Origin: Acinetobacter tjernbergiae DSM 14971 = CIP 107465
GTDB lineage: Bacteria; Pseudomonadota; Gammaproteobacteria; Pseudomonadales; Moraxellaceae
Assembly (NCBI RefSeq): GCF_000374425.1
Contig: NZ_KB894356.1
Location: forward strand, 1-64,000
Direction of reading: 5' to 3'
DNA length: 64,000 nucleotides
The notes below the pieces were generated by a model that was given only the letters and a program-made list of their open reading frames with translations, had not been told where the DNA came from and ran no database searches. The translations under genes were made by a program, and so were the position numbers. Within the stretch, counting starts at the first letter, position 1; each line of letters starts with the position of its first letter. Positions 20,850 through 25,532 of the stretch are shown here, in pieces.

Positions 20850-22118
20850 ATGAACTTAACTGAACTCAAGAAAAAACCCATTGGCGAACTCATTAAAATT
20901 GCGGAGTTTATGGGCCTTGAAGGTATGGCACGTAACCGTAAACAAGATATTATTTTTGCCATTTTAAAACGCCACGCTATGAATGGCGAAGAAATTTTTG
21001 GTGATGGTGTTCTCGAAATTCTGTCTGATGGGTTTGGCTTCCTACGATCGGCTGCGGGTTCATATTTAGCAGGACCTGATGACATTTATGTCAGCCCATC
21101 ACAGATCCGTCGGTTTAATTTACGCACAGGTGACACCATTACTGGCACAATTCGTCCACCTAAAGAAGGTGAACGCTATTTTGCTTTATTAAAAGTCAAC
21201 CAGATTAATTACGACACGCCTGAAAACTCACGTAATAAAATTTTATTTGAAAACTTAACACCATTATTTCCAACCGAACAAATGGTAATGGAACTCGGGA
21301 ACGGCACTACAGAAGATTTAACATCGCGTGTTGTTGATCTGGTTGCACCAATTGGTAAAGGTCAACGTTCAATTATTGTTGCGCCGCCTAAAGCCGGTAA
21401 AACAATGTTATTACAAAACATTGCGCAGTCAATTGTCCGTAATAACCCTGAAGTCTTCTTAATCGTACTTTTAATTGACGAACGCCCAGAAGAAGTTACC
21501 GAAATGGAACGCACGGTCCGCGGTGAGGTTGTTGCTTCAACATTTGATGAAGCCCCTGCTCGCCACGTTCAAGTTGCCGAAATGGTCATCGAAAAAGCAA
21601 AACGTTTAGTTGAACATAAAAAAGATGTTGTTATTCTGCTCGACTCAATTACGCGTTTAGCACGTGCTTACAACACCGTGGTTCCATCATCAGGTAAGGT
21701 ACTTACAGGTGGTGTTGATGCCCATGCATTAGAACGCCCAAAACGTTTCTTTGGTGCTGCACGTAACATTGAAGAAGGCGGTTCACTCACGATTATCTCA
21801 ACTGCATTGATTGAAACAGGCAGTAAAATGGATGACGTGATCTACGAAGAATTCAAAGGTACAGGTAACCAAGAGATTACGCTTGATCGTCGTATTGCTG
21901 AGAAACGTGTATTCCCAGCAATGAACATTAAGAAATCTGGTACTCGTCGCGAAGAACGTCTCATGAGTGAAGAAAATTTGCGTAAGGTTTGGATCTTACG
22001 TAAATTATTACATCCTATGGACGAGCTTGCAGCAATGGAATTCCTGTTAGATCGTATGAAAGAAACCAAAACCAACGATGATTTCTTTGATCAAATGAAG
22101 CGTAAAGCCTCAACTTAA
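20850..22118 (+). CDS. rho: Transcription termination factor Rho
   Basis: The 422-residue protein matches standard Rho length. It has an N-terminal helical domain ([19 protein letters not shown]), a cold-shock RNA-binding domain (about 50-120, [17 protein letters not shown]), the Walker [15 protein letters not shown] near 180, Walker [17 protein letters not shown], and R- and Q-loop regions. The hexamer is an RNA helicase that ends transcription at rut sites. The start ATG follows a weak ribosome site. It is monocistronic with its own promoter and terminator. Confidence 0.98.
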
Positions 22119-22130
22119 ATCAAGACTATA

Positions 22131-22160
22131 AAAAAGCTACCTCCAATGGTAGCTTTTTTT
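22131..22160 (+). terminator. Rho-independent terminator after rho
   Basis: GCTACC and GGTAGC pair around a TCCAAT loop, flanked by five As on the left and a run of seven Ts on the right, 12 nt after the rho stop. Confidence 0.88.
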
Positions 22161-22427
22161 ATTTGGTTGACATGCTTACATAATATTTACAGAAAATTTT
22201 AAAATCACAATAATTTCACAAACAATTGTTTTATATAATTATTAGTAATTTCAAGATATCATTTTTAGCCATATACCGATTCAAAACTAATTTTCAATAG
22301 TTTTTTTCTATCAAAAAATAGCCAAATTCTGACCCTTTTTGTCGTTTTGTTGGACAGAACAGTAGTAATTCATGATTTGCTTTGATAGGATAGCGACAGA
22401 CCAGTTAGGCTGCTCCCTGCGTTGTTA

Positions 22428-22442
22428 CCTAAAGCGTTTAGG
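22428..22442 (+). other. Hairpin in the 391-nt region before the alanine-rich lipoprotein
   Basis: CCTAAA and TTTAGG form a perfect 6-bp stem around GCG, about 67 nt before the lipoprotein start. The rest of 22161-22509 is very A/T-rich to about 22330 and then changes to more balanced composition (22330-22500), compatible with a promoter and a structured 5' untranslated region. I could not place a convincing -10/-35 pair. No coding frame is supported here. Confidence 0.35.
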
Positions 22443-22509
22443 AATAATAAAAGCACAAACAGACTAACTCAGGTTTTTTTTAATCTCACAATTTTATGAG
22501 AGTGATGCC

Positions 22510-22755
22510 ATGTTATTCAAAAAATTTGCTGTTGCTGCTGCCGTTGCTACTACTTTAGCTTTCGTTGGCTGTGCTAAAAAAGAAGCTCCTGCTGCTGAAG
22601 GCGCTGCTTCTGAAGCTGTAGCTGCTTCTGAAGCTGTTGTTGCTGCTTCTGAAGCTGTTGTTGCTGCTTCTGAAGTTACTGTTGCTGCTTCTGAAGTTGC
22701 TGCTTCTGAAGCTGCTCCAGCTTCTGCTGCTGCTCCAGCTTCTGCTGCTCAATAA
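22510..22755 (+). CDS. Small alanine-rich repeat lipoprotein
   Basis: The 81-residue protein has a lipoprotein signal ending LAFVGC (Cys21), so the mature form is about 61 residues. After KKEAPAAEG it is built almost only of Ala, Ser, Glu and Val, with VAASEAV repeated at near-heptad spacing (Glu residues 5-7 apart), then a Pro/Ala tail. This suggests an alanine-rich coiled coil or rod anchored in a membrane leaflet, reminiscent of Lpp-type proteins but without visible homology. GAGAG lies upstream of the ATG. At DNA level the repeats are nearly identical. The function is unknown. Confidence 0.8.
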   Translation: MLFKKFAVAAAVATTLAFVGCAKKEAPAAEGAASEAVAASEAVVAASEAVVAASEVTVAASEVAASEAAPASAAAPASAAQ

Positions 22756-22773
22756 TCTAATTCTAGATTATAA

Positions 22774-22801
22774 AAAAGAGAACCTTTGGTTCTCTTTTTT
22801 T
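22774..22801. terminator. Terminator between the repeat lipoprotein and ihfA
   Basis: GAGAACC and GGTTCTC pair around TTT, with A-run and T-run flanks extending the stem. The strong T run on the plus strand ends the lipoprotein transcript. The A run would also give a T run for leftward ihfA transcription. Confidence 0.88.
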
Positions 22802-22857
22802 ATGCCCAAATTTTATTAAAGTTCATAAATATCGAAATAAAATATAAAAAAAGCAGA

Positions 22858-23154
22858 TCAATCGATCTGCTCATTTCCAACACGCTGTCTAAATTTCTGA
22901 CCCGCTCTAAACGTCACCACTCGGCGAGCAGAAATCGGAATTTCTTCGCCTGTTTTTGGATTGCGTCCCGGACGCTCTCGTTTATCTCGTAACTCAAAAT
23001 TACCGAACCCTGAAAGTTTGACTTGTTCACCCGCAATTAATGCTTGGCTAATTTCATCAAAAAATAGCTCGACCATCTGTTTTGCTTCACGGCGATTTAA
23101 GCTAGTAAGCTCACTTAAATGGTCCGCCATCTCTGCTTTTGTTAATGCTGTCAT
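22858..23154 (-). CDS. ihfA: Integration host factor subunit alpha
   Basis: The 98-residue HU/IHF-fold protein has the alpha-type sequence [15 protein letters not shown] and the DNA-bending arm motif [24 protein letters not shown] with the intercalating Pro. With IHF-beta it bends DNA sharply at specific sites. Its start overlaps the pheT stop by 4 nt (ATGA), indicating translational coupling. pheT-ihfA adjacency is conserved in gammaproteobacteria. Confidence 0.97.
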
Positions 23155-25532
23155 GAGGCCCTCAATGTCGCTTGGTAAGTGTCTTCCAACACTTGAATAA
23201 TGTTATCCATACCAGATTTAATTTCAGCATCTTCAAGCGTACGAGTTGGGTGTTGCCACAACAATGCAAAAGCTAAAGAGCGTTTACCTTGTTCAACCCC
23301 TTGTCCCGTATACACATCGAACAACCATGTAGAGTCGAGTAATTCTCCACCAGTTTGCTCAATCAATCGCTGAATATCTCTTACCTCAATCTTATCAGAG
23401 ATTAAAAGCGCAATATCACGTCTAACCGATGGAAAACGTGATAATTCTGTAAAATTAGATACATAAGATTGCAAAACCGCCTGTTGATCTAGCTCAGCAA
23501 CCCAAGTTATGCCTAAATCAAGTTCATTTTCCAAAGATGGATGTAAACGACCGAGATAACCAATCGATTGTCCATTGACTAAAATTTCTGCAGATTGACC
23601 TGGATGTAGCCACGCACGTTCAGTACGAACAAATTCAACATTCACACGACCCGCAGCTAAAACCTCCTCAATCTCACCTTTGAAATCAAAGAAATCCATT
23701 GCTTGAGGTTTCACATGCCAAGATTCTGGTGTACGAGAACCAACGGCAATCAGTGCCAAAGTTGGAATTTGCTGAAGATCATGAATACTTTGCGCATTCT
23801 GATAATCAAAACGCAAGCCCAACTCAAAGAAACGTACACGCTGCTGTTGACGATTGAGATTGTACTGCACACAAGGAATCAAACTCGATAACAAGGTACT
23901 ACGCATTGCTGCCAAATCACTTGAAATTGGATTGGCAAGCATTAATGGTTGTACATTTGGATTCAACTGCTTTTCAAGTTTTGCATCAGCAAAGCTAAAG
24001 CTGATTGCTTCTTGATAACCCAATGTCGCAACAGTTTGACGTAATTGTGCAATTTCAAAACGGTCTTGATACTTTTCTAATTGCACATCAATTTTTGGCA
24101 AACTAATTTGAATATTGTCATAGCCGTGAATACGTGCAACTTCTTCGATTAAATCTTGATAGATTGCCATATCATAGCGGTGTGATGGCGGAACGACACT
24201 CCACTCACCTTGCGCTTTGGTTTCAACGTCACAACCCAAACGCATCAAAGCATCAGCAATAAAATCACCAGCCACTTCATAACCCAATAACTGATCAACT
24301 TGCGCTTGTTGCAATGCAATCGCTTCACGCTTCGGCAATAAAGCTTCTTGCTCAGCAACCGTAATTGGACCAAATTCACCACCAGCAAAGGCTTGAATCA
24401 GTTCAGAAGCACGGTGCATCGCAATCATTGGCAATTCAAAATCAACGCCGCGTTCATAACGCTGTGAAGAATCAGTATGTAAACCAAAACGACGCGCACG
24501 ACCCGCAATCGCTAAAGGCGCAAAAAACGCACTTTCAAGGAAAATATCTTGCGTATCATCTGTTACAGATGAGTCTAAGCCACCCATAATCCCTGCAATT
24601 GCCAATGCTTTTTGATCATCAGCAATGACCATCATATCATCTTGCAATTCAACTTCCTGATCATTCAGCAAAGTCAGTTTTTCTTGTGGCTGAGCTTGGC
24701 GAACTTGAATCGAACCTTCGATTTTTGCTAGATCAAAAGCATGCATCGGTTGACCCAACTCAAGCAATACATAGTTGGTAATATCCACCAAAATACTATG
24801 CGTACGAAGACTTGAACGAGCAAGTGCTTGTACCATCCACTCAGGTGTTGCTGCTTTCACATTCACATTTTTGATAATACGACCTAAATAACGTGGCGTA
24901 CCTTCAGTTGTAATGGTGACTGCTTTTTCATCCGTAATCGTTGCCGAAATCGGTTGAATCTTAGGTTCATTTGCTTGTAGCTGATTGATCACTGCAATTT
25001 CACGGGCAATACCACGAATGCTAAAACAGTCACCACGGTTTGGCGTGATGCTAATATCAATCACATTGTCATCAAGTTTTAAATATTCACGAATATTCAT
25101 TCCAACTGGTGCATCAACAGGCAGTTCTAACAACCCATCAATTTTATCTTCTAAATCAATTTCAGAAGCACCACACAGCATCCCCTGTGATTCAACACCG
25201 CGCAGTTTGCCTTTTTTAATTTTAAAATCGCCTGGTAATACCGCACCAATCGTGGCAACAGGTGCTTTCATTCCTACACGAACATTTGGTGCACCACATA
25301 CAATTTGTAATGGCTCACCTGAACCAATATTAATCGTTGTCACACGTAAACGATCTGCATCTGGGTGTTGTTCAACCGTGAGAACCTCACCAACAACCAC
25401 ACCCGTAAACGGTTTTGCTACAGGTGCTAATTCATCAACTTCTAAACCAAGCATGGTCAATTGATTAGAAAGTGTTTCGCTATCAATCGCAGGGTTGACC
25501 CACGTGCGTAACCAATTTTCACTAATTTTCAT
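23151..25532 (-). CDS. pheT: Phenylalanyl-tRNA synthetase beta subunit
   Basis: The 793-residue protein has the N-terminal tRNA-binding OB fold ([22 protein letters not shown], about 45-150), the B3/B4 editing region, the B5 domain, the catalytic-like core and the C-terminal anticodon-binding domain ([17 protein letters not shown]). It forms an alpha2-beta2 enzyme with PheS and edits Tyr-tRNA(Phe). It lies 33 nt after pheS and overlaps ihfA. Confidence 0.98.

Follow-up and report, generated by a model that had tools for sequence, protein, structure and literature searches.

The probable lirL locus and its product

The window, that is, the whole stretch of 64,000 nucleotides of Acinetobacter DNA that was analysed, carries a small lipoprotein gene which is very probably lirL, together with the following neighbours and associated elements.

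20850-22118, plus strand: upstream neighbour, which from its protein we take to be rho, with its own terminator at 22130-22159
22510-22755, plus strand: ORF of the very probable lirL ortholog, 81 amino acids, comprising a signal peptide (residues 1-20), the lipidated Cys21, then AKKE, and a tail rich in alanine that carries repeats of the AASEAVV type
22603-22696, plus strand: 21-nt tandem array of 4.6 copies with 90% matches (Tandem Repeats Finder), encoding AASEAVV heptads
22777-22801, plus strand: intrinsic terminator of the gene (AGAGAACC TTT GGTTCTCT and a T run), read from the sequence, with its hairpin at 22777-22795
22858-23154, minus strand: downstream, convergent ORF of 98 amino acids, presumably the IHF alpha gene ihfA (himA)

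The locus was compared across 144 non-identical records, obtained by merging those with identical leader and ORF. The rho gene lies upstream in 142 of them, and ihfA or pheT lies downstream and convergent in 121, some of the fetched stretches being short. A terminator of its own had been attributed to the gene by the first-pass annotation, and this attribution stands: in 144 of the 144 records the 110 nt beyond the stop codon contain a hairpin under -7 kcal/mol with T5 behind it, while a simple terminator scan of the window did not list the site at 22777-22801.

The translated ORF begins with MLFKKFAVAAAVATTLAFVGC, reaches a lipobox (...LAFVGC) at Cys21 and continues as CAKKEA into the alanine-rich tail, so that the small, alanine-rich lipoprotein with a tandem DNA repeat that had been proposed is indeed encoded here. 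Throughout the family the lipobox reads FVGC in 141 of the 144 records, with near variants in the remaining 3, and the proteins measure 65 to 119 amino acids, with a median of 84; the variation in length announced by the first-pass annotation is thus real between species. An AlphaFold2 prediction from 28 sequences places a helix at residues 32-66 with low confidence (mean pLDDT 61), and the tail is probably helical according to this model. Of the lipid-anchored rod that had been imagined, the small lipid-anchored protein and this predicted helix are retained, and the Lpp-like rod is not, the protein having no LPP match.

A protein search found matches in 146 of 149 Acinetobacter genomes. Some weak matches among these 146 are other proteins, the low-scoring second matches of several genomes (G131 and G101, for example) sit within longer ORFs, and one genome scored as a miss (G014) carries a lirL ORF (L221). 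Of the 52 loci whose records carry an organism title, 50 are from Acinetobacter and 2 from a "Moraxellaceae bacterium"; these named loci (L061-L112) overlap the unnamed set and were left uncounted, and L113-L117, L226 and L227 are control loci for the CSKKEE motif. A sample of the bacterial family gave protein matches in 82 genomes out of 199, distributed over 6 of its 16 genera. In 17 of these genomes, which lie outside Acinetobacter, the match is weak (E of 2e-8 at best and mostly around 5e-4).

Related lipoproteins were noticed along the way. A second alanine-rich type, MNKLLIALGLA...VAFVGCAKKEE, of 84 to about 128 amino acids, occurs at L100, L101, L103 and L215, and genome G031 carries both this type (L215) and the MLLKK type (L216); L215 was left out of the 144-record set on account of its different N-terminus. 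At a locus of a Moraxellaceae metagenome-assembled genome (L097:3001-3204), a closely similar signal peptide and CAKKEE precede a tail rich in Glu and Val (EAVEAVEEAEVE) and not in Ala and Ser.

The assignment of ORF 22510-22755 to lirL, a named Acinetobacter lipoprotein gene, is very probable; it is based on the sorting residues quoted in a later paper and on the alanine-rich composition attributed to LirL. The primary paper on LirL (Huang 2022, PNAS) is said to describe an abundant, alanine-rich lipoprotein, and, going by its title, cells from which lirL has been deleted resist an inhibitor of signal peptidase II. A 2026 PNAS paper (PMC12846801) gives the A. baumannii LirL residues +2 to +6 as SKKEE and describes a mainly inner-membrane protein, and an mBio paper (PMC12802150) uses LirL, an inner-membrane lipoprotein, as a non-surface control. 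According to a paper citing the primary study (PMC12919932), a lipoprotein of this sort can have an influence on cell morphology and on resistance to serum. The passages on LirL in these sources do not mention a leader RNA.

The window protein resembles LirL in being a lipobox lipoprotein of Acinetobacter with an alanine-rich sequence, the latter a trait also attributed to LirL; unlike LirL, it has AKKEA after the cysteine. CSKKEE is present in 35 of the 144 family proteins, and in 14 of the 15 that have an AAVAATLAF-type signal peptide, which we take to mark the A. baumannii group. DNA encoding CSKKEE was scanned in 8 genomes of this AAVAATLAF/SKKEE type and in the window's own genome. The 8 genomes yielded 6 further matches, one each in 6 of them, none of which follows a lipoprotein signal peptide; the lirL identity is favoured because the ortholog is the sole lipoprotein start with SKKEE in these 8 genomes. 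In the window's own genome the one match lies in a larger, different lipoprotein (L117), which counts against the identity.

Repeat, codon usage and the resemblance to Lpp

The first-pass annotation had counted about three copies of a 21-nt unit at 22621-22691. The repeat is real and its extent is wider, namely the 4.6 copies listed above, and overlapping Tandem Repeats Finder rows with periods of 15, 18 and 42 stretch the repetitive region to 22749. At an offset of 21 nt the base identity is 0.796. None of 2000 same-codon reshuffles reaches this value, their mean being 0.611 and their maximum 0.753. Back-translation of the protein with codon usage averaged over the window yields 0.581 on average (0 of 2000 reaching 0.796). 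The mean rises to 0.727 when the codon frequencies of the gene itself are used (48 of 2000), and to 0.755 with those of the family across the genus (182 of 2000). Because back-translation with the gene's own or the family codons comes near the observed identity, the DNA repeat is mostly a consequence of the protein repeat and the codon bias.

This bias is pronounced. Alanine is encoded by GCT in 33 of 34 cases, compared with a background of 28% in 37 ORFs of the window, serine by TCT in 8 of 8 and glutamate by GAA in 8 of 8. Such a codon bias is usual for the most highly expressed genes, and on this ground we infer that lirL would be very highly expressed; the high expression suggested by the first-pass annotation agrees with these signs in the sequence.

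The same annotation expected the repeats to slip in replication, changing the length of the protein by whole heptads. Close pairs, defined by at least 95% identity over the 120 nt before the ATG, were compared for the size of their gaps. Among 259 such pairs, 623 of the 728 gaps measure 3, 6, 9 or 12 nt and 13 measure 21 nt, in counts that compare species rather than strains (one genome per species) and are pairwise, hence not independent; a further 46 of the 728, with sizes of 1, 2, 4, 5, 8, 10 and 13 nt, are artefacts of the alignment. Since gaps of 3 to 12 nt dominate and those of 21 nt are few, the length of the repeat region drifts, as far as aligned sequences tell, by codons and not by heptads. 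A slip-strand heptad switch finds no support in the scarcity of 21-nt gaps between close relatives, and the coding repeats of lirL look ordinary.

The heptad-like repeats also invite a comparison with the Braun lipoprotein, Lpp. The product would then be an outer-membrane, peptidoglycan-linked rod, a heptad coiled coil whose length varies by slip-strand events, and the small size and apparent abundance of the protein, its repeats and the low-confidence helix at residues 32-66 all go in this direction; it may indeed work like an abundant envelope lipoprotein. Such a rod is nonetheless very unlikely. A Pfam search with the window protein returned neither LPP nor any other family at E<=1, and the single match of an NCBIfam search, at 12.1 bits against a cut-off of 374, was disregarded. 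The window protein ends in Gln, and the family shows no conserved C-terminal lysine, the last residue being Q in 69, H in 46, K in 27, E in 1 and N in 1 of the 144 proteins. The passages cited above for the cellular location of LirL (PMC12846801, PMC12802150) place it at the inner membrane, and the few 21-nt gaps speak against the slippage that this reading entails. The Lpp-like association with peptidoglycan evoked by the first-pass annotation is not borne out by these observations.

A conserved folded RNA upstream of lirL

The long 5' region of the gene had already attracted attention, and the predicted transcript start does lie about 112 nt before the ATG. What had escaped notice is that, from comparison between species, this region is a conserved folded RNA. 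Its elements, and those of the putative promoter that precedes it, are as follows.

22362-22371, plus strand: conserved GTAGTAATTC block in the -35 region, recognised from conservation of the leader across the genus
22383-22391, plus strand: predicted extended -10 (TG-A-TAGGAT) with a putative promoter role; a -10-like motif is present in 141 of 144 records and TGATACGAT in the other 3
22397-22481, plus strand: structured leader RNA (covariance-model match 22397-22480)
22400-22412, plus strand: 5' strand of stem P1 (ACC-AGTTAG-G-CTG), with 22409 unpaired in the window
22418-22455, plus strand: inner hairpin P2 (TGC/GCA, TTGTT/AATAA region, CCTAAA-GCG-TTTAGG), from the single-sequence fold and the covariance model
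22460-22474, plus strand: 3' strand of P1 (CAG-A-CTAACT-CA-GGT), which contains a 2-nt bulge and passes directly into the U tract
22474-22481, plus strand: U8 tract directly after P1, from the aligned leaders
22484-22501, plus strand: hairpin P3, UCUCA...UGAGA, over the ribosome-binding site GAGAG (22498-22502), from the window fold

Conservation runs from the GTAGTAATTC block and the extended -10 through the leader to the GAGAG, which is present in 144 of 144 records, with UCUC upstream of it in 142. The GTAGTAATTC block is strongly conserved in the genus, yet makes a poor -35 hexamer, and it may be a regulator site. A SigAb promoter was rejected, the elements published for it (GTCAAC, CGTT; PMC12153292) being unlike the lirL promoter.

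In the fold of the window leader, P1 encloses P2 within a single long, imperfect stem, and the U8 tract comes next; the three relatives that were folded adopt the same structure. The stability of the window fold is modest: z is -2.0 over 88 nt, a stability equalled by 11 of 200 shuffled sequences, and -1.2 over 126 nt. It is the comparison between species that carries the case for the structure. Among leaders with a U run (100 of the 103 distinct strings), 93 fold so that the 5' end meets the base of the U tract, as against 87 of 500 base-shuffled leaders. An earlier count had given 130 of 137 leaders closing onto the U run, the 144 being reduced by 3 without the motif as first written and 4 without a U run; of the 7 leaders that do not close, six show P1, a second U run having been chosen, and one (L221) is without P1. 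Position 22409 faces 22463 in P1; the relatives usually have two mismatched purines there (65 of 97), G.A and A.G swapping between species. As regards a possible leader peptide, which was not retained, frames of at least 8 codons starting with TTG, ATG and GTG are found in 101, 45 and 11 of the 144 leaders, respectively.

The structure was derived from single-sequence folds, an alignment of 16 sequences and a covariance model. In the plain mafft alignment of 16 leaders, which was not fitted to any model, 7 of the 26 pairs have changed on both sides (mean of 2.5 after shuffling), in 12 cells (3.6), and 93.8% of the cells are paired, a share that falls to 48.9% or less once the partner strand is shifted. 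In 97 model-aligned leaders (77 distinct), an alignment which by construction favours the structure, these values rise to 10 of 26 pairs (3.4 shuffled) and 39 cells (5.5), neither of which is reached in any of 500 shuffles, and P1 carries 6 of the 10 covarying pairs. RNAalifold, applied to the first mafft alignment of all leaders, a poor one misaligned around P2, found no structure in the leader region and a weak start-codon hairpin alone (-4.1 kcal/mol), a result that counts against the proposed fold.

At E<=0.01 the covariance model has exactly one match per genome in 139 of the 149 Acinetobacter genomes and none in the other 10. In the search of 100 loci all 97 matches end 25-31 nt before the lirL ATG, and no match was obtained in L192, L218 and L220; opposite-strand and secondary matches (25 of 122, E 0.015 or worse) were removed there by a stricter cut-off. 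In the sample of the bacterial family the model matches 64 of 199 genomes, all of them Acinetobacter (1 of 16 genera), in a search whose strict filters lose some weak matches. The DNA upstream of lirL matches in 145 of the 149 genomes, 17 of these matches beginning at query position 138 or later and so spanning just the end of the leader and the first part of the gene.

When 21800-23400 was compared with Rfam 15, E values as high as 5 being allowed, 31 matches came out, all under their gathering scores; these sub-threshold matches, such as isrG over the repeat, were judged to be due to chance or low complexity. The searched literature, including PMC11472050, PMC12646401, PMC5094136 and PMC12153292, contains no description of a lirL leader RNA, and it may have been listed earlier in Huang 2022, in the Kroger 2018 transcriptome or in supplements. 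Judged by the alignments, the leader is a well-supported RNA element, supported by covariation, and appears to be uncatalogued. A leader that is conserved and folded, and whose ribosome-binding site sits in a hairpin, could be the aptamer of a metabolite riboswitch controlling lirL. We regard this as extremely unlikely: besides the failure of any Rfam family to reach its cut-off, 11 of the 144 leaders are short (72-75 nt) and have no room for P2, the two of them that were folded keeping P1, and 11 genomes match the whole model across merely 56-57 nt.

Proposed control of lirL expression

The model we propose builds on what was obtained by comparing sequences, namely the gene family, its presence throughout the genus, the fold and covariation of the leader, the link between its single copy and lirL, and the codon bias; from these we infer high expression (from the codon bias), the transcription start and function. 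Transcription would start at the predicted extended -10 promoter, placing the 5' end of the mRNA 2-4 nt ahead of P1. The 5'-terminal stem formed by P1 and P2 would protect the lirL mRNA from decay that depends on the 5' end, and the U tract and the P3 hairpin over the ribosome-binding site would set its translation. The product would be a lipid-anchored, alanine-rich tether whose repeat length drifts codon by codon under strong codon bias, and the parts of the leader would together adjust how much is made of an abundant lipoprotein, one that places a load on the lipoprotein-processing pathway. We put forward tentatively, giving it close to an even chance, this combination of a highly expressed lirL tether, a 5' stem that mainly shields the mRNA, and a U tract and P3 that set translation.

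A precedent for such a layout is the leader of the E. coli ompA mRNA, in which a 5' stem shields the transcript against 5'-end-dependent decay. The predicted lirL mRNA shares this plan: a transcript for an abundant protein of the envelope opens with a stem, after which come an unpaired stretch and then the ribosome-binding site. The likeness drawn here is one of layout, and in lirL, unlike ompA, a U8 tract follows the stem at once.

This U tract is the principal argument for another reading, in which P1 and U8 form a leaky, possibly regulated intrinsic terminator, so that some or most transcripts would stop at about 22481 and the lirL mRNA would result from read-through. As in known attenuator leaders, a stem is followed directly by a U tract upstream of the gene. 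P1 is joined directly to at least 6 uninterrupted U, starting at its last bases, in 84 of the 97 model-aligned leaders (exactly 8 in 66 of 97), 93 of the 100 distinct leaders close onto the tract, and merely 25-31 nt separate the end of the model from the ATG, which leaves little space for a separate promoter. Unlike in intrinsic terminators, the stem is long-range and carries a 2-nt bulge near its base, which together with the internal mismatch weakens it; no conserved anti-terminator pairing was seen by eye; the U tract is absent in 4 divergent relatives and short or interrupted in 13 of 97 leaders; and the codon bias, a sign of very high expression, is hard to reconcile with a strong terminator. 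We consider attenuation the main rival, somewhat less likely than the protective stem.

The protective stem is preferred to the terminator because the bulge lies 3 bp from the U tract and a purine-purine mismatch is kept in 65 of 97 leaders, because the 4 divergent relatives (L218-L221) still fold a stem near the 5' end without any U tract, and because 11 leaders have no room for P2. Against protection, the U8 that directly follows the stem in most species is a hallmark of terminators which a pure stabiliser does not need, and the stem of the 4 divergent relatives starts about 8 nt in.

A terminated leader of 85 nt might in addition act in trans as a small RNA, its unpaired CUCC loop pairing with other ribosome-binding sites in the manner of Aar, an A. 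baumannii small RNA for which CUCC is a tested seed (PMC11472050). GCUCC is present within the first 30 nt of 95 of the 144 leaders, the window fold placing it in the internal loop on the 5' side, and a stem with a U tail resembles the ends of small RNAs. The motif is, however, missing from 49 of the 144 leaders, and the words "lipoprotein" and "leader" are absent from the main text of PMC11472050; we hold this reading to be rather unlikely. Also unlikely is a leader of dual function, in which a regulated terminator would release, in abundance, a small RNA of 85 nt whose CUCC seed is accessible. If it were true, one promoter would balance the major small lipoprotein of the genus against the repression of other envelope mRNAs.

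In conclusion, the LirL lipoprotein was already known, and what appears to be new is the lirL leader RNA element, which has no match in Rfam 15. A leader conserved throughout the genus in front of lirL would offer a handle on how the cell sets its level of LirL.
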